Below are positions 13,737 through 27,382 of a DNA stretch of 40,520 nt, piece by piece. Position 1 is the stretch's first letter. Every line of letters begins with the position of its first letter. The DNA lies in the IMG/VR virus record IMGVR_UViG_3300048033_000730, positions 1 through 40,520 of that record, one strand, 5' to 3'. Under the pieces are notes generated by a model. The model worked only from the letters and a program-made list of their open reading frames with translations. It ran no database searches and was not told where the DNA came from. The position numbers were made by a program, and so were the translations under genes. Source of the stretch: a virus.

Positions 13737-16700
13737 CTATTCGAAGAAGTCGTCAGTCATGTAGCGTAGGCCCTTAGTGAAGGTAATACCCGCAACGGTA
13801 TCTTCTCGGTCTACGCGAACACTGGCATTCCACGAACGCTCTAACGTCCTGTCGTCCATAAGAGTGGGGAACTGCTTCCTAAACTCTCTAGCCTCCCGCA
13901 CCGCCTCCTGCTGCAACTGTGTGTTGCCCATTTTCTTAGCCGCTTTGTACTTATTAAGTATGCGCTGTTTTCTTGCCAGCACCTTATTCTCAAAGTTTTT
14001 AGCCGCCGAACGCTGCTCGTAAGTATTAGACAAATCAGCAGGGGTAAAGCCAATAGCTTGTGTTACCAAGTTCCATGTGTTGATGTCGGTGTCTATCGGG
14101 TCACCGTCCCTGTTGCGTGCACCATCTACCATATAACGCCAAGACTTCAACCCGTTGCGAACAAACGTAGGCGACACGTTTTCAAATCCCCGCATATACC
14201 TGCCCGCAGGGAAGTCTTCTGTGACCGCACGTTCGACGCCTAGTGCGTATGACCCCATAGGCCCAGCCAAATTAAACAGCATAGTACGCACATAGCCATA
14301 ATCTTCTATGCTCTTAGGGTCATCCCGCCACAGTATGTCGTTGGCCAACGCTGCTCGCGTGCTTACGTCTACGTTTAACAAGGAGCCAATAACGCCTTGG
14401 TAGAAGAAGTCGCCGAAAGTATCTTGCATTTGCACTCGTGGGTTGTACGGCTCATCGTCATCGTCGGGTATTAACATCTCGATTATGTGCATTAGCGTCG
14501 TAGTCAACCCAAAGAACGGCAGACCTTTAGCGCCTAGGATGGCAAAGCTTAGCCCGTAAGTACCAATTACTTGTCGGATTGCCGCGCGCTTTACTTCTGG
14601 GGGCAAGTCAGAGTCTATAAACGCCTGTTTCATAGCTGTGCCCAAGACGTAGGCTTGCTGGAACACGATGTTTTTAAACGTCCAAATTACACGCCCGAAA
14701 TCGTTTTGCATCCACCTAGGCATTGTTTCTGCCATACCACCGGTGTGCGCGTCACGCACCATCTTAGCTGCGAAATCAATTGCTGCTTGCTCGTTGTTAG
14801 CAGGTACATTCTCTGAGGGTATACCGTATTGCAAGGCTAAGTCATACGCGGCTATAGCGGTGGCTGACCGCATGTACTGCTCACTCTTAGCGAACGGAGT
14901 AGAAAGAAACTCCACCGTCTTGTAGAACACGCCGTCAAAGTCTTTGGCTTTTGTTTTGCCCCGCTCCAACGCTTCCCTCGCAACCGTGTGCTTTAGCAGT
15001 CCGCGATTATCTAGCGCGGTGTACATGTTTTTGTACTTAGCTATAGTGCCCCAGTCTTTTGTCGCCGTTATACCCGCAGCTTGCAACGCGCTGGTAGCAG
15101 CAGGGTAAGTGGTCCGTGCACCCAACATAGGTGTTACCATAAACACCAAACCAGTAAGGTTGACCACCGCGGACGATACGCTACCAACTATGTACTCAAG
15201 GTAGCTGGCAAAAGTAAGTTTAGCGGCAAGAGGAGAAACTCTCGGGTTAAGGAAGAAGTCTTCTTGCATAGTCAACGCTTTAGCAGCGGCAGTCATGTTC
15301 TTATCTTTGCCGTGGTACTCCTTGGCCACCCTGCGTATTTCGCTCATAGCATTTTCTATTTGCGGGTTGAAACGGGTGTTAGCTATTTTATTAGCCCACT
15401 TAATAGCGACGTTGGAGTAAGCCGTAATGATGTCAGCATCCATACCCGGCAGGTTCATGGACTTTTTAAACTGCTGCATTAACGACTTTTCTGGGAACAT
15501 AGAGATGTACTGCTGGTACACTTGCTCGACTACTTTCTCATCCACGCCGTTGTTGCGCATTTCTCCTACGAGCTTAGTGACAAACTGCCCTTCTGGAAGC
15601 CCCTTAGGTACGCTCATAGAGTTTATGTTGTCGTACTGCTGAATTTCAAAGTTTGCCCCGTGCTTAGCCCGCAGCTCTGCGATGGCCTGCTCTCTTTCTC
15701 TAGGACTAGCCAACGCCCTTGGCGTTCTTTTTGGTTCGCCTTTGGCGTTAAGGTTGTCTGGGTCTAGGTAGTCAATCCAGTATTCGCCGTCGCGTTCAAA
15801 GGGCACATAGGCAGTAACCCCTTCCAGCTGGGCAAAATCTTTCATTAAGTTAGACGCAGCTGTTGCGGGGAGTAGCTCGCTAATAAGCTCCACGTACTCG
15901 GTAAGGAAAGCGTCGAGTTCTCCGCGTAAAGTTTTGTATGCGTCTTGTAGGCCCTTAGGCAAGTTGTTGTATCGGTTTTTTAGCTTCCTGTAACTTTCCT
16001 TGCCCTTAGCGTTTTTAGGCTCGGGTTTAAATATGTCAACGCCCTCGAGTCGAGAATCTATAGCGAGGTTGTTAAATGCTTTGCGCTGCGCAGGGGTAGC
16101 TTCACGCTCGGCTTTAGACATGGTCCGAATGTTCTTGCTTGTACGGTCTATGGCCGTGTTGACCTCACCGCGTTTCCTTTCTATGCCTGCCAGCAGGGTG
16201 CCTATGGGCAGGGGGTTTTTGCCTCTGTAACGAGCCGCAGTTTCGCCGAACATATTTTGCATGTTGCCAAGGCTGGAAGTGCCTAGCGCCCATACCCTTG
16301 CCTTGTCGTCTTTGACGCGGGAAAGCTTGTTTAGTGCATCGTCAGTGTTACGGTCGAGGAAGGACTTAGATATGTCGTCCATAACCTCGTCTACTTTGCC
16401 ACTGCCTAGATACAAAGTTTCGGCAAGAGTGGGCTCTATACCTTGAGATACATCCAGAAGATCATTTAAGAACTTAAGCGCTGTGTCGTACGCAGTGTCA
16501 CTTTTACGCAGACCGAAGAACTCAGCAATAACCTCGAGAATACGCACGAACATATTCTCACTCTTAGGCGCTTTAATTTCTTTTAGCAGTGCTTGAAATT
16601 CGCCGTTGCTTACAACCTCAGCAGCAAACTCCTGTATGTCTCTACCACCATAAGCACCACCCATTCGAGTCTTTATCTCGTCGAAGAACTCGATGAACTT

Positions 16701-19700
16701 TTTAGTTGTGGGGTGCTCTCGGTTATTCAGCACCTGCGCAAGCGCCGCGTGCCCAGACTCGTGCAGCAGGGTGTGCTCGTTTAGACCGGTAGTGGTTTTA
16801 AGGACCACCGTGTTCAGGCCCGGGATGTATGCACCGCTAGCCATGTTGGGTAAGGTAGTGGCCGAGTAACCTGCACCTTCTACTTTTTGTGCTGTCCGCA
16901 TAGCGGCGGCAACGGCCTTCTTACCTAGCAAGACTTCGGTAACTTTTATTACCTCAGTAAGCGCTGTGTTCTGTGTTGTTTCTAGTCCGAACAACTTGCG
17001 CATTGCCCGCACAAAGGCTGTAAGGGCAGTGGTATTTTCATAAGGTATTGTATCTAGGTATTCCGCAGCACCGCGGTTTGTCATGGCCCAAGTAGCAAAC
17101 TCTCGAGGGTTATCTAAAAAGTTATTGCGCCCTTCAAACGCGCTTTGCTCCATAGGGGATAACTTTCTTTTACCTTTTACTTTTTTGTTGTAGTTATCTA
17201 CTACGAAGTTTCTAACTGCGTTCAACTCTGACACAGCTTGGTTTGTCTCTGGGCTATTAAGCTCGCCTATGTTCCTTATGTTGAGGGTAGTTACGGCATG
17301 AAATAACTCGTGCGTTACTACTTCGTACGACGTGCCAACTTTACCAGTTACGTCAGCCCCGTTTACCCTTACAAATAAAGACACGTCCTTTGGACTAACT
17401 TGAGTTTCTTGGAAGCCCCTAACGCCACCCATGCTTGCTGGAATTTTGTCCCCTAAGTGGATCACCTTAAAGTCTACTGGCATGCCAGCTTTTTCGTAAG
17501 CACTAAGCCGGTTCTGTATTGCGGCGGCAATAACTCGTAGGTCTTTACTTGGTGCGTTCTTAGCTATGAACTTAGCTACTTCAACAGCGCTCTTACCTTC
17601 AACGCCTGCTTGGACCTCAAGGGCTTCTGCGGGCAACGGATCAAGGTTCTGCGTTCTTACACCGGGGCCGTCTAGTGCAACTGACGTGCTGCCTAGCTTG
17701 CTGTTTATGCGGGCTATTAGGTTAGTAATTGCTTTGTCGTCACCACGCTTGTTTCGGGCGGTAATAACCGCCTTGACCGCACCTTGCAAGTCACCCTCTG
17801 AAACCAGCTCTATTGTTTCTGGCGCTAAATCAGGGCCTTGGTACTCAGGCGTTTCTAACAGGAACTTCTCCCCAAACTTTATTGCGCGCTTTTGATCTTT
17901 CTTCGAAAGAATCTTATTGTTCTCGGCAAGGACTCTCGCCCGAATAGACTCGGGGATTAAGTTAGGGTTTTCTTTGGCTATGCGTGTGTAGCTGTCTAAG
18001 AAGGTCTTCTGCTTTGTCTGTGGTAGGCTAGCAATAAAGTTCACCCACTCGCTGCTTCGCGCTGCTGGGCCTAGCTCCGCTTCCGCTTTTTCTGCGATAG
18101 TTTGTGCGTTTCTTATAACCGCCGCAACGTAACCAACAGTTCCTTCTTGCTCTGCCTGCTCCTCTAAGTCCGCAACGGCTTCAGCTTCTTCGTCCAGCCT
18201 TGCTTTTTCTTCGTCCTTTATGCGCTTAGCTGTTTGCTCAGGAGTTTCGCCAACCAGTTTCTTTTTTTCTTGTTTTAGCTTACGATCAACTTTTAATGCG
18301 TCTTTGTTTACCGCCTTGCTAAGTTCTTTTTCTGTTTTGCTACGCCCAAGCTCGCTTACCTTGCGCACTTCGGCGTCTTTCTTTTCCTTGGCGTTTCTAC
18401 GCTTTATAGAAGCAAGCTCGGTCGCCACCAAGTCTTCGTTTGCTTTGAACGCTTTTTTCACGGGCGCGCCCATGTTGTTATTTATATACGTCCTAGCTTT
18501 TTGTACGTCTGCTAAGGTCGCAGCTAACTTTTCATTTTCGCGTACCGTATAGCCAACATTAGATTCAGCAGCTATAGCGGCAATAGCACCTTCAGGAGTT
18601 GAATAGGCGTGTAAGTAGTTAGCCAATACTTGTCTACCAGAAGTAGCTTCTTCTTGTGGTGACGTGGCCGCTTTAAGTGCAGCTAACTCTTGATATACTT
18701 TGTCGGGCAGCGGTTTGTTTCTAAAGGCTAGTTTGTCCTCAACAAACTTTTTAACCTCAGGTGGTTTTTTCTTTGTTACAGGGGCAGCTTTTTTGGCAGC
18801 GGGAGCAACGGGCTCAACAGGGGCAACGGGCTCAACAGGGGCAGCGGGCTCAACAACAGGAGCGGCAACTTCTTCGGTTGGCTGTGTAGCTTTCTCTGCT
18901 CGCTGTGCCTGTGCTGTGCGCACCAAGTTATCAAACTCTTCGTCGGGCAAGTTAAAGCTTTGCTCTTCATTAACACCAAGTTCGTCAAAAACTATTTTCG
19001 CTTGCTCAGGGTCTTTAAGCTGGCCTACGCCCTCAGCTTGTGTTTCTGCTACAGGTTCAGCAGCCGGTGCCGCAGGCTCTTGAGGTACTATCATCTCTTC
19101 TTGGACAAGAGGACCGTCAAAAACTAAATTATCCCGCGCTTCAACTTCCGCTAAGAAATCGCGCATCTCCGGCTCAGAAAAGTTCTGTACCTGTGTAAGT
19201 TCCGCTTCAGTAAATTCGTACTCGTCAGTAAGGAAACCAAGCAGGTCTTTAGACCACAGCGGACGGTCCACAGGTATATCTTCTTCTGCGGCAGCCATTA
19301 CTTCATCTTGGGTTTCTTCTGTCTGGAAGGGCCGCCTCGCAAGTTCTTCGTCTATTACAGGCGCAGCTTCCTTAACTACAGGCGCAGCTTCCTTAACTAC
19401 AGGCGCAGCTGCTGCTGTTACGAGCGGTTTTTTACCTACCACAGTTGGTTCTGGTATATCTTCAGGCGCTGGCGGCTCTTCAACTACTGGCGCTGCTTCT
19501 TGGGCTACTTCTGGTGCGGCCTCTTCGGTTACTGGCGCTGCTTCTGGGGCTACCGCTGGTGCGGCTTTTTCTGCTACTACCGGCTCGTCTATAACAGGAG
19601 CAGCTTGTTCGGCGGCAGCGGCTTCGGCCTGTGCGCGCTCTCTTCTGAACTGGGCTCTTTCGGTAAACCCGCGTCCTGTGCCACCTATACCACCAAGAGG

Positions 19701-20567
19701 CAGACCAACAGCAAGACCGGCAACGCCCGACTCTAGCACTCGGCTGACGTTTTCTGGTGTAAAGATGTCAGCGTTTTCGGCAACAAAACTTTCTGCTGCG
19801 ATATTAACCGCTTCTTGCGAACCCTCAGTTAGACCCTCTGTGGCTGCGCCTTTTACTACGCCCTTAGCGGCGTTAGCGGCAATACTGGGCTGCATACCTG
19901 ACTTCTTAAGTGCGGCTTCCACCACAGCTTTTCGCATGCTAGGGCTGAAGCTTTTCACTAACTGTACTGGGGCGGCAAGCTCAAGCAACGAGTTAACCCC
20001 ACCGGCTATGGTGGCAGCCACCGGCTCTATTTTCCCAGTTTCCTCATAAATCCCCGCAAAAGATTCTGGGGCCATAAGAGAGAACGAACCCAACGCACCC
20101 GCAAGGGTGGCGCCTGTGCCTGCGGCTAAACCAGCAAGCGGAGCTGCTACTGCACCTGTAACTGCGGACGCGCCTAACCCGCCAAGAATAGGCAGGTTTT
20201 CCATAAACTTTTCTGTGACGTAGCCAGCGGCTCCGCCTAAGGATTCTACGTCTTTAAAGCTCCCGTACTGAGCGGGGTCTTGCATGGCAGCGGCCATACG
20301 ACGTTCATCTGCTTCGGCGAGCTGTTCTTTTGCGTACTCATCCGCCCCGAATATAGAAGCTAAATAAGCGGGCAAGTCGTCCTTTAAAGTCGCTTCTAGG
20401 TTTGTGCTACCACGTCTATAAGCAGCGCTAGCGATGTCGCCTAAGGTGGGGTCTGGTTGTGCATAGGCTCCGGGATAAGCCGCCTCAATACGAGAGCGTA
20501 TTTCTTGCGAAGGCATTTCATCTGGGAAACGAATAAGCTGCCCGTCGGGCGCACGAACTATAGGCAT
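13737..20567 (-). CDS. Giant polyvalent virion protein with two metalloprotease-like motifs
   Basis: 2276 aa. In order: an N-terminal region with glycine/alanine-rich hydrophobic stretches (~115-175, 275-300) that could insert in membrane; an Ala/Pro/Glu/Val-rich disordered zone (~310-640) with near-perfect short repeats; charged coiled-coil stretches (~700-850); HELFH (H1086-H1090) with EFATWAM later; HESGH (H1269-H1273) with QEFAAEVV later; YVPFERDGEYWI (~1585), like the PLxRFG motif of polyvalent proteins; and a C-terminal region (~1750-2276) with hydrophobic helices. This plan fits large phage proteins injected with the DNA (Iyer-type polyvalent proteins). It is the last gene of the late operon, after three putative internal proteins. 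Substrates of the putative proteases unknown. Confidence 0.85.
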   Translation of the reverse strand: MPIVRAPDGQLIRFPDEMPSQEIRSRIEAAYPGAYAQPDPTLGDIASAAYRRGSTNLEATLKDDLPAYLASIFGADEYAKEQLAEADERRMAAAMQDPAQYGSFKDVESLGGAAGYVTEKFMENLPILGGLGASAVTGAVAAPLAGLAAGTGATLAGALGSFSLMAPESFAGIYEETGKIEPVAATIAGGVNSLLELAAPVQLVKSFSPSMRKAVVEAALKKSGMQPSIAANAAKGVVKGAATEGLTEGSQEAVNIAAESFVAENADIFTPENVSRVLESGVAGLAVGLPLGGIGGTGRGFTERAQFRRERAQAEAAAAEQAAPVIDEPVVAEKAAPAVAPEAAPVTEEAAPEVAQEAAPVVEEPPAPEDIPEPTVVGKKPLVTAAAAPVVKEAAPVVKEAAPVIDEELARRPFQTEETQDEVMAAAEEDIPVDRPLWSKDLLGFLTDEYEFTEAELTQVQNFSEPEMRDFLAEVEARDNLVFDGPLVQEEMIVPQEPAAPAAEPVAETQAEGVGQLKDPEQAKIVFDELGVNEEQSFNLPDEEFDNLVRTAQAQRAEKATQPTEEVAAPVVEPAAPVEPVAPVEPVAPAAKKAAPVTKKKPPEVKKFVEDKLAFRNKPLPDKVYQELAALKAATSPQEEATSGRQVLANYLHAYSTPEGAIAAIAAESNVGYTVRENEKLAATLADVQKARTYINNNMGAPVKKAFKANEDLVATELASIKRRNAKEKKDAEVRKVSELGRSKTEKELSKAVNKDALKVDRKLKQEKKKLVGETPEQTAKRIKDEEKARLDEEAEAVADLEEQAEQEGTVGYVAAVIRNAQTIAEKAEAELGPAARSSEWVNFIASLPQTKQKTFLDSYTRIAKENPNLIPESIRARVLAENNKILSKKDQKRAIKFGEKFLLETPEYQGPDLAPETIELVSEGDLQGAVKAVITARNKRGDDKAITNLIARINSKLGSTSVALDGPGVRTQNLDPLPAEALEVQAGVEGKSAVEVAKFIAKNAPSKDLRVIAAAIQNRLSAYEKAGMPVDFKVIHLGDKIPASMGGVRGFQETQVSPKDVSLFVRVNGADVTGKVGTSYEVVTHELFHAVTTLNIRNIGELNSPETNQAVSELNAVRNFVVDNYNKKVKGKRKLSPMEQSAFEGRNNFLDNPREFATWAMTNRGAAEYLDTIPYENTTALTAFVRAMRKLFGLETTQNTALTEVIKVTEVLLGKKAVAAAMRTAQKVEGAGYSATTLPNMASGAYIPGLNTVVLKTTTGLNEHTLLHESGHAALAQVLNNREHPTTKKFIEFFDEIKTRMGGAYGGRDIQEFAAEVVSNGEFQALLKEIKAPKSENMFVRILEVIAEFFGLRKSDTAYDTALKFLNDLLDVSQGIEPTLAETLYLGSGKVDEVMDDISKSFLDRNTDDALNKLSRVKDDKARVWALGTSSLGNMQNMFGETAARYRGKNPLPIGTLLAGIERKRGEVNTAIDRTSKNIRTMSKAEREATPAQRKAFNNLAIDSRLEGVDIFKPEPKNAKGKESYRKLKNRYNNLPKGLQDAYKTLRGELDAFLTEYVELISELLPATAASNLMKDFAQLEGVTAYVPFERDGEYWIDYLDPDNLNAKGEPKRTPRALASPREREQAIAELRAKHGANFEIQQYDNINSMSVPKGLPEGQFVTKLVGEMRNNGVDEKVVEQVYQQYISMFPEKSLMQQFKKSMNLPGMDADIITAYSNVAIKWANKIANTRFNPQIENAMSEIRRVAKEYHGKDKNMTAAAKALTMQEDFFLNPRVSPLAAKLTFASYLEYIVGSVSSAVVNLTGLVFMVTPMLGARTTYPAATSALQAAGITATKDWGTIAKYKNMYTALDNRGLLKHTVAREALERGKTKAKDFDGVFYKTVEFLSTPFAKSEQYMRSATAIAAYDLALQYGIPSENVPANNEQAAIDFAAKMVRDAHTGGMAETMPRWMQNDFGRVIWTFKNIVFQQAYVLGTAMKQAFIDSDLPPEVKRAAIRQVIGTYGLSFAILGAKGLPFFGLTTTLMHIIEMLIPDDDDEPYNPRVQMQDTFGDFFYQGVIGSLLNVDVSTRAALANDILWRDDPKSIEDYGYVRTMLFNLAGPMGSYALGVERAVTEDFPAGRYMRGFENVSPTFVRNGLKSWRYMVDGARNRDGDPIDTDINTWNLVTQAIGFTPADLSNTYEQRSAAKNFENKVLARKQRILNKYKAAKKMGNTQLQQEAVREAREFRKQFPTLMDDRTLERSWNASVRVDREDTVAGITFTKGLRYMTDDFFE
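18781..19415 (-). repeat. Ala/Pro-rich low-complexity repeats within the giant protein
   Basis: Two blocks. At 19367-19415 a 21-bp unit (AGGCGCAGCTTCCTTAACTA plus C on the + strand) is repeated twice in tandem and begins a third time. At about 18803-18860 an 18-bp unit (GGGCTCAACAGGGGCAAC) is repeated with small changes. They encode APVVKEAAPVVKEA- and PVEPVAPVEPVAP-type tracts, a flexible linker likely to vary in length between relatives. Confidence 0.8.
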
Positions 20568-20588: not shown

Positions 20589-22451
20589 TTATTGGTTTGG
20601 TAGCTGAGTATATTCTACTATGCCTTGCGAACCCCCTATTCCAGCCTGCCCGCCTACACCGGAAAACTGATTTAACGCGGTTAGTTCATCCCGCAAAGTT
20701 TTCTTTAGTAGCTCCTCCTTAAATGCTGCTAGTTCAGAGGCTATGTTTTCTTTGTCTCTTGGGCTGCTATAAAGACCACCAAAGCTAGAGTATTTGTCCT
20801 CTAGCTCTTTTTCTTTTCTGGCTATAATTTCTGATAGGTCGCCCACTTCCATGCGCGTCAGTATGTTTTGTCGCGCCTCCATAGCCCTGTCTTGCATAGC
20901 TACGTCAGAAGCAGCCTTTAAGCGGGCGTCCAACTCTTGTTGCTTAGCTTGGCGATCAGCTTCGGCAGAGCGTATTCTGCGCCCTTCCTCTGCGATTTTA
21001 GCGGTTTCAAAGCCTTTAGATGCGCCTCCGCCCCGACCCAAAACTTGGCCCAAGCCTATTAGCCCGTCAAGAATGCCCCCAACTTTGCCTTGTGATTGTG
21101 GGGTCTGTGGAGGCGGAGTGGTTTTAGCCGCCGGTGTTTGCCCTGTTCCCGTGCCTTGTTGGGTTACGCCCGCAGCCGGTGGCTGGCCTGAGGCACCGCC
21201 TTTTATGTCTTGGAGGGTCTGCTCAACTCGAGCGCGCTCGTCAAAAATGCGCTGGAAAATATCTTTAGCTGCTTGTTCACGGGTAGGTGGCATCTTGCCT
21301 GTTTCGTCAGCAAACGCTCTTTCTTGTCGCTCCTGCGCTACCTTTTCTAACCGCTCTCTTAAATCTCTTGCCCCACTCAAAGAATCGGTAGCTAAAGAAC
21401 TAAGGCCGCCCGGTAGGTCCTCTATAAACTGCCCGATAGCGTTTAAAGGCACGTTAATTCCGGCACGCGCTCGGTCGCCAAATTCTTTAAACTGCTCTTC
21501 TCGGTTTTGTCGCCGCGAGTCCTGCTCTATAGCTTGTTGTGCCCTGCGGTCTTCTTTTTCTTGTTCCCTACGTAGTTCTTCAGCTTTTTGTTCCGCAGCG
21601 CGCCTCCTACGCATTTCGTTATATGTTTTGTTTCCGGGGTCTGGGTTAAAGTAATCCAATAAGCTTGATTCTCTTGGCGTTTCGTCCGCTTCTCGCACTA
21701 TGGCACCTTGCGACATTAGAAGACGTACGTCATCCGCCGTGTACTGTTCTCCGTTAGGGCCTCTAGCCACAATGGTAAACTCATCTTCTCCTTCAACTAC
21801 AGACCCATCAAGACCGGCGTAACCCTTAACCCGACCACCCATAGCCATGCCTTCGGAGGGGCCATACATCATATCGTTAACTTTCTGCTTGAACGCATTA
21901 GAAAACTGCTCCTCAAACATCTGCCTGTCTAGCTCAAGAGCCTTTCGGCCTTCGGGGCTTACTTTGTCTGGGTTCTTATCGTAGTAGTCAAACTTCTTAA
22001 GACCTTCTAAGTACTTAAGCATCTGAGCATTTTCTTCGGGCGACAGTTGGGGAATAGGGCCCTTAGACTTCGCACCTACTTTAGGCATGCCCCCTTGTGC
22101 ATAACCCACAATGCCGCCTTGCGCCATGCCTACTCTTCCCATATTGGGAGCGGGAGCCGCAGAAATACCTCGGGCCATTTGTGGTTGGGGGGCAGGCATA
22201 CTGCGCTGTCCTTGCATCTGGACTCCGGGGGCCACGCGCGAAGCTAGGTCTTGCTCCATCTGGCCTACGACGGTGCCCTCTGGGGGCTGCATACCCATGG
22301 CCGCTTGGCGCTCTTTAGCCGCTTCCATCTTCTGCTTTTCTTGCAGTGCTATGGCATAAACCAGCTGAGGGTCTACACTCTGCCTACGCATAAGCTCTTG
22401 AATACTCAAGTCTTTTAGCTGGTCTATTTCTTGCGCGATTCCATAAGCCAT
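20589..22451 (-). CDS. Putative internal/injection virion protein (620 aa)
   Basis: Not recognised by family name. N-terminal helix (YGIAQEIDQLKDLSIQELMR), then a Met/Gln/Pro-rich linker containing MAQGGIVGYAQGGMPK (~132-147), a small domain with DEFTIVARGPNGEQYTADDV (~227-246), a long Arg/Glu-rich helical region (~280-410), a Pro/Gln/Gly linker (PPAAGVTQQGTGTGQTPAA), and a final coiled region. The mix of helices and disordered linkers, and position between other late genes, fit a virion or ejected protein. The AQGG motif is shared with neighbours. 21 nt separate it from the giant gene. Marine phages carry similar proteins of unknown role. Confidence 0.78.
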   Translation of the reverse strand: MAYGIAQEIDQLKDLSIQELMRRQSVDPQLVYAIALQEKQKMEAAKERQAAMGMQPPEGTVVGQMEQDLASRVAPGVQMQGQRSMPAPQPQMARGISAAPAPNMGRVGMAQGGIVGYAQGGMPKVGAKSKGPIPQLSPEENAQMLKYLEGLKKFDYYDKNPDKVSPEGRKALELDRQMFEEQFSNAFKQKVNDMMYGPSEGMAMGGRVKGYAGLDGSVVEGEDEFTIVARGPNGEQYTADDVRLLMSQGAIVREADETPRESSLLDYFNPDPGNKTYNEMRRRRAAEQKAEELRREQEKEDRRAQQAIEQDSRRQNREEQFKEFGDRARAGINVPLNAIGQFIEDLPGGLSSLATDSLSGARDLRERLEKVAQERQERAFADETGKMPPTREQAAKDIFQRIFDERARVEQTLQDIKGGASGQPPAAGVTQQGTGTGQTPAAKTTPPPQTPQSQGKVGGILDGLIGLGQVLGRGGGASKGFETAKIAEEGRRIRSAEADRQAKQQELDARLKAASDVAMQDRAMEARQNILTRMEVGDLSEIIARKEKELEDKYSSFGGLYSSPRDKENIASELAAFKEELLKKTLRDELTALNQFSGVGGQAGIGGSQGIVEYTQLPNQ

Positions 22452-22475
22452 GGTTTTGATCTCTTAGCTAGTATC

Positions 22476-23291
22476 TTAAAATATTTTATCGAAAAGGTCT
22501 TTAAGCTGATCGAGTACGTCAGCACTAGCGCCCGCGTCAGCAAGAAGCTGCGACAACTCACTAGGCCCGATGTACTCTGTTTGCGCAGCGGAAATAGGCA
22601 GGTCTTGCAGTAGTGACTGCTGATATTGCACCTGCTTGTATGGGAAGTCTCGCTCTTCTACAAACTGAGCGTAGTCCGCCGCAATACCCTCTTGCTCGAT
22701 GCCACGTTGCACAGCACCGGCGTTTTGTTGGGCGGCGATAGCCTCTAATCCGTATTTATTAGTCATTTCTTGAGCTTGCCGTGCGCGGTCTTGTTCGAGG
22801 TTGAACTGATCCATACCTTGAGTGTAGGCAGTCTGCATACCCGTACCGTATATGTCGGCAAGGTTTCTAAGTAGGTTGCGCTGACCTTCAGACTCCATAA
22901 TAGCTTGTCTACCACCACCGAAAGCGCCCGCTTTACCTAATCTGGAGGCATTCTGTACGCGCTGTATCGCTGCCTGACGCTGCGCTTCTGCCATCTGGGG
23001 TTCTAAAGCAGCACTAATAAAAGGAGACATGTAGTCCTGCGCCGCAGTACCAGAGGTAAAGCTGGTAGGCGTAAACCCACCCATTTGGTCAGTAGGCACT
23101 GTAAGACCTGCAAGCCCTTGAAATGCTTTAGTTTGCAGTTCAGACTGACCCGCAGTAAGGGGCCCTGAATACGCTTGGTAGGGCATATTAGACAGAGCTT
23201 CGCCTTTAGCGAGCATTCCGGTTACGTAGGGTGCAGCCCAACCGGATAGGGATTCTGTGGTACTTGCGGGTTGACCTATTGGATCACTCAT
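22476..23291 (-). CDS. Putative virion/DNA-injection protein (271 aa)
   Basis: Contains the run YMSPFISAALEPQ, then QRVQNASRLGKAGAFGGGRQ with AIMESEGQRNLLRNLADIYG and a Gln/Ala-rich helical second half. The order YMSPY...AGAFGGSR...E..RNL...DI..G is seen in a widespread family of phage structural proteins, often assigned to tail or internal virion proteins. Predicted mainly helical. Ends in an amphipathic helix (LDQLKDLFDKIF). Preceded by the 308-aa gene with a 10-nt gap; role inferred from the order of genes. Confidence 0.75.
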   Translation of the reverse strand: MSDPIGQPASTTESLSGWAAPYVTGMLAKGEALSNMPYQAYSGPLTAGQSELQTKAFQGLAGLTVPTDQMGGFTPTSFTSGTAAQDYMSPFISAALEPQMAEAQRQAAIQRVQNASRLGKAGAFGGGRQAIMESEGQRNLLRNLADIYGTGMQTAYTQGMDQFNLEQDRARQAQEMTNKYGLEAIAAQQNAGAVQRGIEQEGIAADYAQFVEERDFPYKQVQYQQSLLQDLPISAAQTEYIGPSELSQLLADAGASADVLDQLKDLFDKIF

Positions 23292-23301
23292 GTGTCTTAC
23301 C

Positions 23302-24228
23302 TCACGCTAAAAATTTTTGGGGGTTAATCTGGCGCCCCTGTTCTTTGGTCCCAGTGCGGGCTTTCCGTATCTTATCCATCATACCGTAAAGCTGTTGTGC
23401 ACCGGCATCGGAATTACCGTTACCTAAGTGGCTTACCACGTCAGCAGGAATGACAAACTCGCCGTCGCTTAAGGCAGCGGGCTGGTTATTATCTATCGTT
23501 GCTGGAATCTGGTCTGCCATACCGTCGGTACTTCCGCCTAAGTACATGCCTTTTGGTGCAACACTAGCAAGGCCGCCTTGGGCGTAACCGTACTGATCTA
23601 GCGCTTCTTGTACCTGTTCGGCGGTTAAGCCCGGATACCGGCTTTGGTAGAACTGCGCCGCAGTCTCAGGAGTAAACACACCCATGTTGAGTAGCTTCCC
23701 TATATCTTCGTTAGATAAACTAGACAGAGTCCCCAAAACATTTCTTTGTGCGGGGGCTACCTCCATACCTATAGGAAGGCGTCGGCTCGCTTCAGCTACT
23801 AGATTTTTTTGCGTGTCCAAGAAATCCGCAAGGCCCCCACCACTTTCTGGGCTGAAAAAACGGTTTGCAGAAGAAGTGGGGGGAGTGGAGGGTTGCGAGA
23901 GTACGGGGCGCTGTTGCCTAGCAGGATTAGCTAAGTTAAGTGCTTGCAGTCCGGCTACCTGCTGCCTGTTCGTTGCTCGTGCGGTGTCAATAGCAGCGTC
24001 CATAGAGCGGTCAAAGCGCGCGTCATAGTCGGCTTGTGTCTCATAACGCTCGTCTTCGGGGTCAAAAATTTTAGGCGCCATTTGGGGGTTAGCGTAGATC
24101 ATGTCGCTAAAATAGCGTTGCCCACTACTGCCCGGACGACGATCGGGAGCATACGTGCTCGGCACAGCCTCACGCTCCGCTCTAAATCTTGGAATATATG
24201 CGTCTTTTAAGTCATATACTTCTGCCAT
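23302..24228 (-). CDS. Structural protein with DGEFVIPADVV motif (308 aa)
   Basis: N-terminal half hydrophilic and helical (RFDRSMDAAIDTARATNRQQ), then a Pro/Ser linker and a helical region (LSNEDIGKLLNMGVFTPETA). The C-terminal third carries YAQGGLASVAP, then IPATIDNNQPAALSDGEF and VIPADVVSHLGNG, a motif that recurs in marine phage proteins and precedes GAQQLYGMMDKIRKARTGT. Function unknown; presumably an assembly or virion component. Starts 1 nt after the stop of the 1050-aa gene. Confidence 0.76.
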   Translation of the reverse strand: MAEVYDLKDAYIPRFRAEREAVPSTYAPDRRPGSSGQRYFSDMIYANPQMAPKIFDPEDERYETQADYDARFDRSMDAAIDTARATNRQQVAGLQALNLANPARQQRPVLSQPSTPPTSSANRFFSPESGGGLADFLDTQKNLVAEASRRLPIGMEVAPAQRNVLGTLSSLSNEDIGKLLNMGVFTPETAAQFYQSRYPGLTAEQVQEALDQYGYAQGGLASVAPKGMYLGGSTDGMADQIPATIDNNQPAALSDGEFVIPADVVSHLGNGNSDAGAQQLYGMMDKIRKARTGTKEQGRQINPQKFLA

Positions 24229-24229
24229 A

Positions 24230-27200
24230 TCAGCCTCGTCCGCTCTCTAAGAGCCTAATAAGTTCTTCAATATCATAATCCTGCACTATACCACCTTCTG
24301 CGTAGGGGGAATACATACCTATAGAATTTAGAAACTCGTCGTCTTCGTCGCCCCTAGGTTGTTGGAAAATGCTAGGCCCGCTTATGTCGTACAGAGGGCC
24401 GAGGTCTACTTTCTCACCCGGTTTGGTTCTTACACCGAACAACGGAACCCCACTCGCTTCTTCCTCAATAGGCACACAAACACCGGCAATGTTTTCTGTT
24501 CCTTCTGGGCACTCCCCGCCGCCTGTGCCCACACACTGCCCATCTACGTCCTCGGTACCCTCTGGGCAAACACAATTACCCGCAAAATCTTTAGTCTTGC
24601 CGCCCGTGCACTGGCCGCCACCCGTTCCGGGGCCTTCACAAACGCCTTGGGCGTTCTCGGTTGTACCTTCTGGGCAGACACATTCAGCGGTTATCGGGTC
24701 TTTAGTCTTGCCACCCGTGCAATCACCCGCCCCAGTTCCGGGGCCTACGCCTTCGCAAACACCTAGCGCATTCTCAGCCGTACCTTCTGGGCAGACACAA
24801 TTGCCTAAAATATCTTTCTCTTTGCCCGAGCCAGCTGGGCATTCGCCCGCCCCAGTTCCGGGGCCTACGCCTTCGCAAACACCTAGCGCATTCTCAGCCG
24901 TACCTTCTGGGCAGACACAATTGCCTAAAATATCTTTTTCTTTGCCCGAGCCGGCTGGGCAGTCATCTGTGCCCTCTTCACCGTCACCGTCACCGTCACC
25001 GTCACCGCCACCTATGCCTTCGCAAACACCTAGCTCATTCTCAGCTGTACCTTCTGGGCAGACGCAATTGCCTAAAATATCTTTTTCTTTGCCCGAGCCA
25101 GCTGGGCAGTCGGTCTCGGTTTCGGTTTCGGTCTCGGTTTCGGTCTCGGTTTCGGTCTCTGTGTCTGTACCGCCAGTAAGGATGTCAACTATATCTACTA
25201 TGTCTAAGTCTAAAGATACGTCTATTTCGCAAACACCCTGCGAATTCTCAACCATACCCTCTGGGCAAACACAGTTGCCTGTTCCGTCTTCTACCTTACC
25301 TGAACCAACAGGGCAGCCGGTCTCAGTTTCGGTCTCAGTTTCGGTCTCAGTTTCTGTTTCGGTCTCAGTCTCCGTCTCAGTTTCGGCACCGCCGTCTCCT
25401 CCGACCCCACCGCCTACAGTTTCTAAAACGGCAGCGGCTGCATCCGCAGCGTCTTGTCTATCTTTAAGTTGCTCGTCAGTAAACGGCCCCACCGCATCAG
25501 GCTCTAACCACCATTTATTATCGTCTGTTAATACATCAACCACGTCTAAATCGCCGACGTTTACTACGTTTTCTACCTCTCCTCCGTCGCCGTCTATATT
25601 ACCGCCTAAATCAGCGTCCGAAGTGCCGAGTACAAGAGTGTTTCCGGGGTCCGCTAGTTCTCCCGTGCTAACTAGATCACCTGTACCGTCTCCTCCAGTA
25701 CCGGCATCGGTCGCAGCTTCAGCCGCTCTTTTTGCTTCTGCTTCTAAAGCCTCTATTTCTGCAACGACATCGGCGGGTATATCTAGCTGTCGATAATTAT
25801 ATAATTCTTTTAGCAGCGCTGCTTTTAATCCGGGGTCCGGTTCGGTTGCTATAGCCTCTTCAAGCTGCTCCAGTAATATGTCTCTGTCTTCTGCATCATA
25901 AAAGTCTTCTGCCGTAGCACCCGGCGCTAAATTTCCTGCCCCCGGCAGGTCGAATACGGCGTTAAGAAACTCTTCCCACGTAGCTTGTTCGGCCTCAGCG
26001 GCAGCAGTATCGGCAGCAGCTTGAGCAGGGTCCCCACCGCCACCACCGCCACCACCGCCACCACCGCCACCACCGCCAGCTTCGGTTTGCACTGGGTCTG
26101 GCTTAAAAATAGGAAACAAAGTCCCCATACCTTTGCCAGTAACGGGGTCAAAATCAGGTAACTCTTCCCCAGTGTCGGGGTCATACCATTTGCCCGTAAC
26201 CCCTTGTGAAGACGTAGAGGATTCAAGACCCGCACTCACCAGACTAGCTAAAAGCCGCTCTTTGGTATCGCCAAAAAACTCTAAATCAGAATCTGGGAGC
26301 GCTTTAACAGCGTCATAAGCGTCTAAAAGGTAAAAGTCTGGGGACATGCCTTCCGAATCCCCTCCGCCTAGGTTGGCTTGTTCTGCCAAGCCTAAAGCTC
26401 TGTTTACTTTTGCAGCAGCGTCGTTTAACTCCCTTTCTTCGGGTGTCATGGGGGTTTCTTTTAACCCGCCCCCACCAAACAAGTCCATGGCATCGAGTAT
26501 ACGATAGGCCAAAACAAAAGGGGCTGTAGCGGGGTTTGCCCCGGCAATTTTGGTAAGTAGCGCAAGCCCGGCAGACTCCTCCCAAGATTCTTTACCCCCA
26601 GCCGCAGCAACAATACTGCCTACGCTACCAGCAAATATGTTTTCCCCCGCCGCTGCCATTTTTGTGGCTTCTGCTGTGTCCCCTATAGTTTTAGACGCCT
26701 CTATAAGATCAAGACCTTCTTTAGCCTTAGCTATGTTGTTCGCGGTGTTGTACGCTGCACCCGCAGTGTTAGCCAAATCCCCTGTGCTTTGCCCTTCGTC
26801 GCCCTGTAGGTTGGTTGCATAAGGAGAGGGGGCATTGGGGTTTATGCCGGGGGTTGTGCCGATTGGAGCGCCCGCTGTGTTACCAAAAAGATCAACTACA
26901 GTTTCGCCGATGTACTGTGCGGTGTTTAAGTCCTGTAAAAAAGCTAAGGGGTCATCTTCCTCTTCAGGTTGAGGCGGCGTTGACGCAGGAGCCGGTGGCG
27001 CTACTGTAAGCACGGGGGGTGGCTCGTAGGCAGCGTAAACTTCCTCAACCACGTCTTGGGGCACATTAAATGTTTCTGATACTTCTTCTACGGTAGTTTG
27101 CCCTGAGTTAATAAGCTCAGATACTAAGTCTATTTCTGACTGGTCAAAGCCTCCTTCTTCCGAGACACCACTAAACAAGTCTTCTACCGGCGCAGGTTCG

Positions 27201-27382
27201 GGGCCGTACACAGGGGCAGTAGGGGCAAAAGCCGCCTGAGCCTCCGCCCGTGGAATCCCTGCCATGTCGGCTACGGTATCTAAATCTGCTCCATAGGCAA
27301 CAATCACGTTAGAAATTTCTTCCAGCGATGCGTCGGGATTATTAGCTAAAAACGCTAGTACTTTGTCTTCGGCAGCTGCCAT
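24230..27382 (-). CDS. Repeat-rich virion protein with Cys modules, Thr-Glu and poly-Gly tracts
   Basis: 1050 aa. Two UBA/HTH-like helical hairpins at the N-terminus (LAFLANNPDASLEEISNVIV; SELINSGQTTVEEVSETFNV) are followed by acidic linker, an Ala-rich region (~150-330), a 15-Gly run (~435-449), and another linker. Then two Thr-Glu tracts and a chain of Cys modules (~688-970): six about 28-31-aa modules with a C-x13-C-x-C-x10-C pattern (for example CPAGSGKEKDILGNCVCPEG) and a seventh partial one. The end contains YAEGGIVQDYDIEELIRLLE. The Cys modules look EGF-like or keratin-like; four Cys each could form two disulfides or bind metal. Function unknown; may be exposed on the virion or released into the periplasm. 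Confidence 0.8.
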   Translation of the reverse strand: MAAAEDKVLAFLANNPDASLEEISNVIVAYGADLDTVADMAGIPRAEAQAAFAPTAPVYGPEPAPVEDLFSGVSEEGGFDQSEIDLVSELINSGQTTVEEVSETFNVPQDVVEEVYAAYEPPPVLTVAPPAPASTPPQPEEEDDPLAFLQDLNTAQYIGETVVDLFGNTAGAPIGTTPGINPNAPSPYATNLQGDEGQSTGDLANTAGAAYNTANNIAKAKEGLDLIEASKTIGDTAEATKMAAAGENIFAGSVGSIVAAAGGKESWEESAGLALLTKIAGANPATAPFVLAYRILDAMDLFGGGGLKETPMTPEERELNDAAAKVNRALGLAEQANLGGGDSEGMSPDFYLLDAYDAVKALPDSDLEFFGDTKERLLASLVSAGLESSTSSQGVTGKWYDPDTGEELPDFDPVTGKGMGTLFPIFKPDPVQTEAGGGGGGGGGGGGGGGDPAQAAADTAAAEAEQATWEEFLNAVFDLPGAGNLAPGATAEDFYDAEDRDILLEQLEEAIATEPDPGLKAALLKELYNYRQLDIPADVVAEIEALEAEAKRAAEAATDAGTGGDGTGDLVSTGELADPGNTLVLGTSDADLGGNIDGDGGEVENVVNVGDLDVVDVLTDDNKWWLEPDAVGPFTDEQLKDRQDAADAAAAVLETVGGGVGGDGGAETETETETETETETETETETETGCPVGSGKVEDGTGNCVCPEGMVENSQGVCEIDVSLDLDIVDIVDILTGGTDTETETETETETETETETDCPAGSGKEKDILGNCVCPEGTAENELGVCEGIGGGDGDGDGDGEEGTDDCPAGSGKEKDILGNCVCPEGTAENALGVCEGVGPGTGAGECPAGSGKEKDILGNCVCPEGTAENALGVCEGVGPGTGAGDCTGGKTKDPITAECVCPEGTTENAQGVCEGPGTGGGQCTGGKTKDFAGNCVCPEGTEDVDGQCVGTGGGECPEGTENIAGVCVPIEEEASGVPLFGVRTKPGEKVDLGPLYDISGPSIFQQPRGDEDDEFLNSIGMYSPYAEGGIVQDYDIEELIRLLESGRG
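24725..24960 (-). repeat. Tandem near-identical 120-bp repeat encoding Cys modules
   Basis: Bases 24725-24840 and 24845-24960 are almost identical at a period of exactly 120 bp, with a few synonymous or silent changes (for example TTTCTC against TTTTTC). Partly matching copies follow at about 25000-25110. Near-identity over this length indicates recent duplication or recombination; repeats encode module plus spacer GVGPGTGAG. Confidence 0.9.
25111..25170 (-). repeat. Thr-Glu dipeptide microsatellite, copy 1
   Basis: A run of alternating Thr and Glu/Asp codons (ACC/ACA with GAA/GAG/GAC) in the reading frame of the 1050-aa gene. A 6-bp unit repeated in imperfect form, with frequent synonymous changes. 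Confidence 0.9.
25317..25387 (-). repeat. Thr-Glu dipeptide microsatellite, copy 2
   Basis: A second Thr-Glu codon run of about 11-12 dipeptides, again just N-terminal to a Cys module, separated from the first by one Cys module. Both act as rigid, acidic spacers in the protein. Confidence 0.9.
26033..26077 (-). repeat. Fifteen-glycine codon run with 9-bp unit
   Basis: Fifteen successive Gly codons on the - strand, built from GGC GGT GGT units (GCCACCACC on the + strand). Such an array is prone to slippage, so the length probably varies between isolates. Confidence 0.92.

Follow-up and report, generated by a model that had tools for sequence, protein, structure and literature searches.

Polyvalent proteins are giant co-injected phage proteins in which zincin domains of the MPTase family, recognised by an HExxH motif and a distal Glu, are embedded; each protein carries one to five of them, about 8% carry more than one, and two zincins in one polyvalent protein are thus a published theme rather than a new one (PMC5512222). 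An HExxH domain is also found in the vRNAP of phage N4, as domain C1 of gp50 (PMC12633501; 9pnr), and this is the only statement that we found in the literature on a zincin in T7-like ejection proteins. In T7-like phages the ejection genes follow the order gp14, gp15 and then the larger gp16 (PMC8954989). In the related ejection protein of PhiM1, the segment Asp268-Asp528 was called endolysin/exotransglycosidase-like by its authors (PMC11440229).

Here we describe P0001, a protein of 2276 aa encoded on the minus strand of a viral window (the whole stretch of DNA analysed, 40,520 nucleotides). Like the polyvalent MPTase proteins (PMC5512222), P0001 is a giant in which HExxH motifs with a distal Glu are embedded; it differs in that its two copies are adjacent, the motifs being 183 residues apart, and fall into two distinct family clades. 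We think it rather likely that P0001 comes from a short-tailed phage and is a giant ejection protein of the gp16 type that carries two zincins. New here are a pair of adjacent zincins from two lineages, the interpretation of the ejectosome 'endolysin' domain as a zincin, and a link between PLxRFG proteins and gp16-type ejection proteins (TEPs); our literature search found neither of the latter two, either of which may be published.

The P0001 gene and its neighbourhood

P0001 stands at the end of a minus-strand operon, at window positions 13737-20567, and plus-strand replication genes converge on it. The operon that it closes also has tail fibre/spike, holin, endolysin and virion genes, and this gene order bears out the sequence-only reading, which had placed P0001 last in the late operon. 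The features of the gene, its product and its upstream neighbours are as follows.

13737..20567, minus strand: gene for P0001, 2276 aa (ORF call)
19599..20429, minus strand: N-terminal region, residues 47-323, matching the virion structural protein family phrog_6958 (E=4e-7)
Residues 127-145, 183-201 and 277-295: three hydrophobic Gly/Ala-rich stretches of the N-terminal region
17700..19640, minus strand: Ala/Pro/Lys-rich linker-like region, residues 310-956, differing between relatives in the alignment
16854..17699, minus strand: cassette, residues 957-1238, cleanly missing from relatives L009 and L011
16893..17645, minus strand: putative zincin domain 1, residues about 975-1225, homologous to residues 328-557 of 9sfn chain G
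17298..17312, minus strand: HELFH, residues 1086-1090 (motif scan)
17100..17102, minus strand: E1156, distal Glu of domain 1, within REFATWAM, which starts at 1155 (alignment)
16368..16850, minus strand: putative zincin domain 2, residues about 1240-1400, present in every relative aligned
16749..16763, minus strand: HESGH, residues 1269-1273 (motif scan)
16629..16631, minus strand: E1313, distal Glu of domain 2, within QEFAAEVV, which starts at 1312 (alignment)
13833..15812, minus strand: PLxRFG family domain (NF032893 'tail-700'), residues 1586-2245 (NF032893 match)
Residues 1793-1811 and 2015-2033: TM-like segments within the PLxRFG domain
15786..15803, minus strand: degenerate PLxRFG motif PFERDG, residues 1589-1594 (sequence)
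14169..14798, minus strand: residues 1924-2133, the part of the PLxRFG domain that aligns to the TEP C-terminus (profile comparison)
20589..22451, minus strand: 620-aa neighbour upstream of P0001, assigned to no family; homologous genes at 26 fetched loci, many of them overlapping
22476..23291, minus strand: 271-aa neighbour, matching the DNA ejection protein family phrog_4287 (E=1.6e-7)
23302..24228, minus strand: 308-aa neighbour

Like gp16-type TEPs, P0001 is the last and largest member of a cluster that contains a DNA-ejection-like gene, a family being assigned only for the 271-aa gene. Of the fetched loci, 57 have a homologue of the 271-aa neighbour and 52 one of the 308-aa neighbour near such a giant gene, many of these loci overlapping. 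Unlike gp16-type TEPs, P0001 is much longer, at 2276 aa, and has a second zincin, a long low-complexity linker and a PLxRFG-type middle. The 620-aa and 308-aa neighbours (20589-24228, minus strand) contain Gly-rich 'AQGGIVGYAQGG' / 'YLGGSTDGMADQ' stretches, and the latter also has a C-terminal 'LSDGEFVIPADVVSHLGNGNSDAG' stretch. Farther along, a 475-aa ORF at 24369-25796 on the plus strand lies antisense to a 1050-aa gene at 24230-27382 and is probably mechanical.

Window positions 1-40520 contain no recognised gene for a terminase, portal or major capsid protein, and no gene in the window proves a short tail; because the record is classed as linear, the window may be a fragment. One relative, on contig L105, has TerL (phrog_38), portal (phrog_1216) and major head protein (phrog_371) genes; a phrog_2 terminase was found in none of ten records, the TerL of the relative belonging instead to phrog_38. 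A search of GTDB genomes with profile A4 returned no prophage relatives.

Two zincin-type domains and their history

The sequence-only reading had pointed to HELFH at residues 1086-1090 and HESGH at 1269-1273, 183 residues apart, each with a distal Glu downstream, and had proposed two separate peptidase domains. Both motifs are where it put them, each followed by its own distal Glu (E1156 in domain 1 and E1313 in domain 2), and the proposal of two zincin-type domains holds up on three grounds: relatives that lack domain 1, profile homology, and a separate HExxH and Glu for each domain. We found neither a single shared fold nor a missing third ligand, the model of domain 2 being of moderate confidence. 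Chance motifs are ruled out by the number of HExxH motifs expected from the composition of P0001 (0.0066, with 2 observed) together with conservation in relatives, both motifs and their distal Glu being kept in the two-zincin relatives L002, L003, L004, L087 and L088.

In a profile comparison with hhalign, the two domains align to each other at E=1.8e-8 (probability 95%) across the HExxH, the Glu helix and later helices. Limnohabitans phage YIMV22061 and Vibrio phage 1.205.O each have a single zincin, which matches domains 1 and 2 alike. Judged by sequence, the two domains are paralogous and both belong to the MPTase zincin family of polyvalent proteins. The distal Glu is identical in 88 of the 88 aligned domains, which were found by HMM in the fetched loci and selected for His, Glu and His, with no requirement for the distal Glu. 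Both domains are under purifying selection: in pairs with the window, domain 1 has a dN/dS of 0.10-0.17 and domain 2 one of 0.10-0.11; identity to L003 is 72% and 89%, respectively. Each domain probably binds zinc through HExxH and Glu, and each probably acts as a peptidase during or after ejection. Two candidate assignments for domain 2 were rejected: a Pfam SprT-like match scored 15.1 bits, below the cut-off of 25.6, and matches to 4wxo/4wxw (E 0.3-0.9) are at chance level.

An AlphaFold2 model of residues 957-1420, made from 17 sequences, had a mean pLDDT of 68, with about 80-96 over domain 1 and about 60-70 over domain 2. In domain 1 the model has helices, three strands, an HExxH helix (H125-141, with HELFH) and a Glu helix (H198-207, with E1156); in domain 2, at pLDDT of about 60-70, two strands and both helices are predicted. 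Domain 2 is thus classed as a zincin by its motif and by its sequence homology to domain 1 and to the zincins of TEPs, with a model of moderate confidence. With VIA, in which a Z below 8 can be chance, domain 1 matched zinc peptidases at Z 5-8 over 140-172 aligned residues, among them anthrax lethal factor (Z 7.9, rmsd 5.2, 168 aligned), Certhrax (Z 6.6, rmsd 5.2, 155 aligned) and PPEP-2 (Z 6.0, rmsd 4.2, 140 aligned), PPEP-1 and PPEP-3 also being matched, and it matched the C1 region of N4 vRNAP at Z 7.0 (rmsd 19.1, 271 aligned). A Foldseek search of the PDB with the model of domains 1 and 2 gave no match at E<=0.001, the best rows being zinc peptidases (best E 0.08). Among viral models, the best match to domain 1 (E=4.7e-11) was to a Pseudomonas phage protein named 'internal (core) protein', followed by polyvalent proteins and virion RNA polymerases.

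Relatives of P0001 offer a view of how the pair came about. L009 and L011, at about 50% overall identity, are colinear with P0001 except that they lack residues 957-1238, which is exactly domain 1, while domain 2 is retained in both as HETTH...QEFAAE. Because these relatives keep domain 2, the two motifs would belong to separate folds, and a single zincin with a duplicated motif is ruled out. The domain-2 type also stands alone ahead of the PLxRFG domain in L093, L095 and L097-L103, and both domains are present in six contigs of the close clade, the window included. The tree places domain 1 with the zincins of ejection proteins and with L023-L029, and domain 2 with those of L090, L093, L095 and L097-L103, which have one zincin each. 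Forcing the two domains of this clade into one joint clade cost 128 log units, and a recent in-place tandem duplication of the P0001 zincins is rejected (AU p=3e-81). From the tree and this rejection, the pair would have arisen via recombination or through an old duplication with loss. Most likely, domain 2 is the constant module and domain 1 an optional cassette, of a kind that phiKMV/LUZ19-like ejection proteins also have.

Elsewhere among the relatives, L024 and L048 acquired two zincins by other routes. The polyvalent-type protein at 4617-11450 of L048 has sister zincins, with HELIH and HEAIH, 300 residues apart (SH-aLRT 92), a pair that on its sequences is an independent tandem duplication. 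A further HE[ML]AH motif of SprT/WLM-like appearance (HEMAHFRVRNHGGSF), from a different family, occurs about 700-1000 residues past the first zincin in 18 PLxRFG relatives (L034, L036-L038, L040, L045, L046, L051, L052, L060, L061, L064-L067, L071, L076 and L077).

Probable kinship with gp16-type ejection proteins

Two solved ejection proteins contain an insert homologous to domain 1: the 'Internal virion protein' of 9sfn (chain G, 1337 aa; phmmer E=6e-17, profile A7 E=5.7e-60) and the 'Tetrameric ejection protein' gp48 of PhiM1 (8vb2; profile A7 E=2.2e-9). The HExxH and distal Glu of domain 1 align with their counterparts. The LUZ19v protein has the same length as 9sfn, 1337 aa, and nearly the same zincin match, and we infer from length and match position that the source phage of 9sfn is LUZ19/phiKMV. 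On the strength of this homology to solved ejection proteins, the co-injection suggested by the sequence-only reading is probable.

The C-terminal half of P0001 appears to be remotely homologous to the same proteins, 9sfn and PhiM1 gp48 (8vb2), and to T7 gp16 (7eyb). Its domain of about 660 residues is the one shared by the PLxRFG or 'DarB-like antirestriction' proteins (NF032893, phrog_10089): the NF032893 match scores 306 bits against a cut-off of 100 (E=5.5e-91), and it upholds the earlier description of P0001 as a polyvalent, PLxRFG-type protein. The literal motif itself is not present, PFERDG standing at its place, compared with FPLSRFGDFF in Serratia phage Parlo, whose PLxRFG protein carries a zincin as P0001 does, and FPLARFGDYW in Vibrio phage douglas 12A4. 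Unlike DarB, P0001 has no fusion of adenine methylase and SNF2 helicase in the Pfam, PHROGs and NCBIfam scans, and its phrog_10089 match is C-terminal only. The same scans found no ART, methylase, helicase or lysozyme; the zincin type is the only kind of enzyme domain detected, and the label 'multi-enzyme' given to P0001 from sequence was overstated.

Aligned by hhalign, 31 PLxRFG domains match ten TEP C-termini at E=4.6e-7 (probability 93%, 157 columns), and locally built profiles of the two match at E=1.7e-6; the controls, a reversed TEP profile and six families that are unrelated but come from the same contigs, gave E>=0.12. The TEP C-terminal profile recovers T7 gp16 (7eyb) at E=1.9e-16. 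The PLxRFG profile gave nothing significant against PDB sequences, so the link to TEPs comes from profile-profile comparison, which is suggestive of a remote and partial homology between the PLxRFG C-terminal domain and the TEP C-terminus. A model of residues 1226-2276 (1051 residues) was poor (pLDDT 59.5, pTM 0.36), and its top VIA row was 8vb2, at a Z of 7.3 that can be chance (rmsd 14.9, 327 aligned); in this low-confidence alignment, residues 51-555 of the model face 391-908 of the chain, with zincin and hub in the same order.

HExxH is kept in eight of the ten TEP-type ejection proteins that we read. Proteins of phiNV3 (L014 7128-11060), LUZ19v (L118 3001-7014), KpV74 (L120 1821-5519), Phoria (L121 1864-5655) and PM75 (L122 1744-5625) retain the zincin-type domain with HExxH, and several of these are annotated 'endolysin domain' or 'lytic exotransglycosylase'. 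HExxH is absent from those of LIMEzero (L119 2038-5133, 1031 aa) and Stm18 (L124 2204-6286), the former looking like a natural ejection protein without a zincin.

The annotations of phiNV3, LUZ19v, KpV74 and others, together with the DALI/BLASTP reading of the PhiM1 protein (PMC11440229), would favour a peptidoglycan hydrolase, with the label correct and the domain cutting the cell wall. Against this, the HMM match of the 'endolysin' region is to a zincin family with HExxH and distal Glu, and the fold search with domain 1 returns zinc peptidases; we consider a wall hydrolase very unlikely. In P0001 itself, no endolysin or lytic transglycosylase family match was found with Pfam, PHROGs or NCBIfam. 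Some zinc enzymes cleave peptide bonds of peptidoglycan, and a wall substrate could be accommodated in that way. Our joint proposal, which we hold to be evenly poised between right and wrong, is that the whole class of PLxRFG polyvalent proteins consists of enlarged gp16-type ejection proteins with inserted enzyme modules and that the 'endolysin' domain of phiKMV/KP34/PhiM1-type ejectosomes is a zincin metallopeptidase.

Possible roles of the zincin pair

If P0001 is a gp16-type ejection protein, it would lie in the capsid above the portal and exit before the DNA, with its C-terminal PLxRFG half and TM-like segments helping to form or anchor a passage for DNA at the inner membrane. Domain 2 would sit directly ahead of the hub and C-terminal half, and the zincins would most simply clip the ejected P0001 or a nearby envelope protein, during or after ejection. 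The packaging, ejection, zinc binding, catalysis, timing and substrates of P0001 are thus all proposals drawn from comparison. N4 gp50 offers a parallel, being likewise a giant ejected protein with a zincin-like HExxH domain ahead of a large helical C-terminus; unlike gp50, P0001 shows no RNA polymerase domain in the Pfam, PHROGs and NCBIfam scans, and no significant sequence match between P0001 and N4 was found.

Self-processing, in which the zincins cleave P0001 before packaging or on ejection and free its N- and C-terminal parts, is a tentative possibility. In phage P1, DdrB is trimmed to about 76 kDa ahead of packaging, and its own MPTase has been proposed to make the cut (PMC5512222); the Ala/Pro/Lys-rich linker at residues 310-956 would be a plausible region for the cut, and a zincin is the constant part of the P0001 clade. 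Yet self-processing would need just one zincin, and N4 vRNAP, ArdC and TraC1, which also contain domains of this kind, are packaged or transferred intact (PMC5512222); the case of N4 vRNAP cautions against taking peptidase activity for granted.

The sequence-only reading had the peptidases acting on host targets after injection, a claim that our results do not support, self-processing or a structural role fitting equally. Injected zincins that cleave host envelope or defence proteins seem somewhat doubtful to us. Domains of this kind are enriched in polyvalent proteins, and action on the host is one of the options proposed for them (PMC5512222); moreover, domain 1 has been gained or lost among relatives in the manner of an accessory weapon and evolves faster than domain 2. 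However, many phiKMV/KP34-type ejection proteins have this domain as a regular component, which points to a general role in ejection, and no partner immunity or antidote gene was recognised.

The PhiM1 homologue of the insert lies beside coiled DNA and has been suggested to shape the DNA path (PMC11440229), which raises a further alternative, that the zincin fold and its metal are kept for structure, for example in core stacking or guidance of the DNA coil. That some TEPs manage without a zincin, as in LIMEzero and Stm18, which have no HExxH, also fits a non-catalytic role, but the invariance of HExxH and distal Glu wherever the domain exists (88 of 88) would be needless for pure structure, and we regard this alternative as unlikely.

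Our preferred reading of P0001 as a gp16-type ejection protein with two zincins has consequences beyond this window. Many phage records label the homologous domain as endolysin or transglycosylase, and a zinc peptidase in the ejection core would alter the choice of assay. The role of the zincins would be directly testable in well-studied laboratory phages such as LUZ19 and phiKMV, and relatives that naturally have or lack domain 1 provide matched pairs to compare. If the joint proposal is true, the structural literature on podophage ejectosomes would meet the comparative genomics of polyvalent proteins, and P0001 would be a linking form with one zincin from each lineage.
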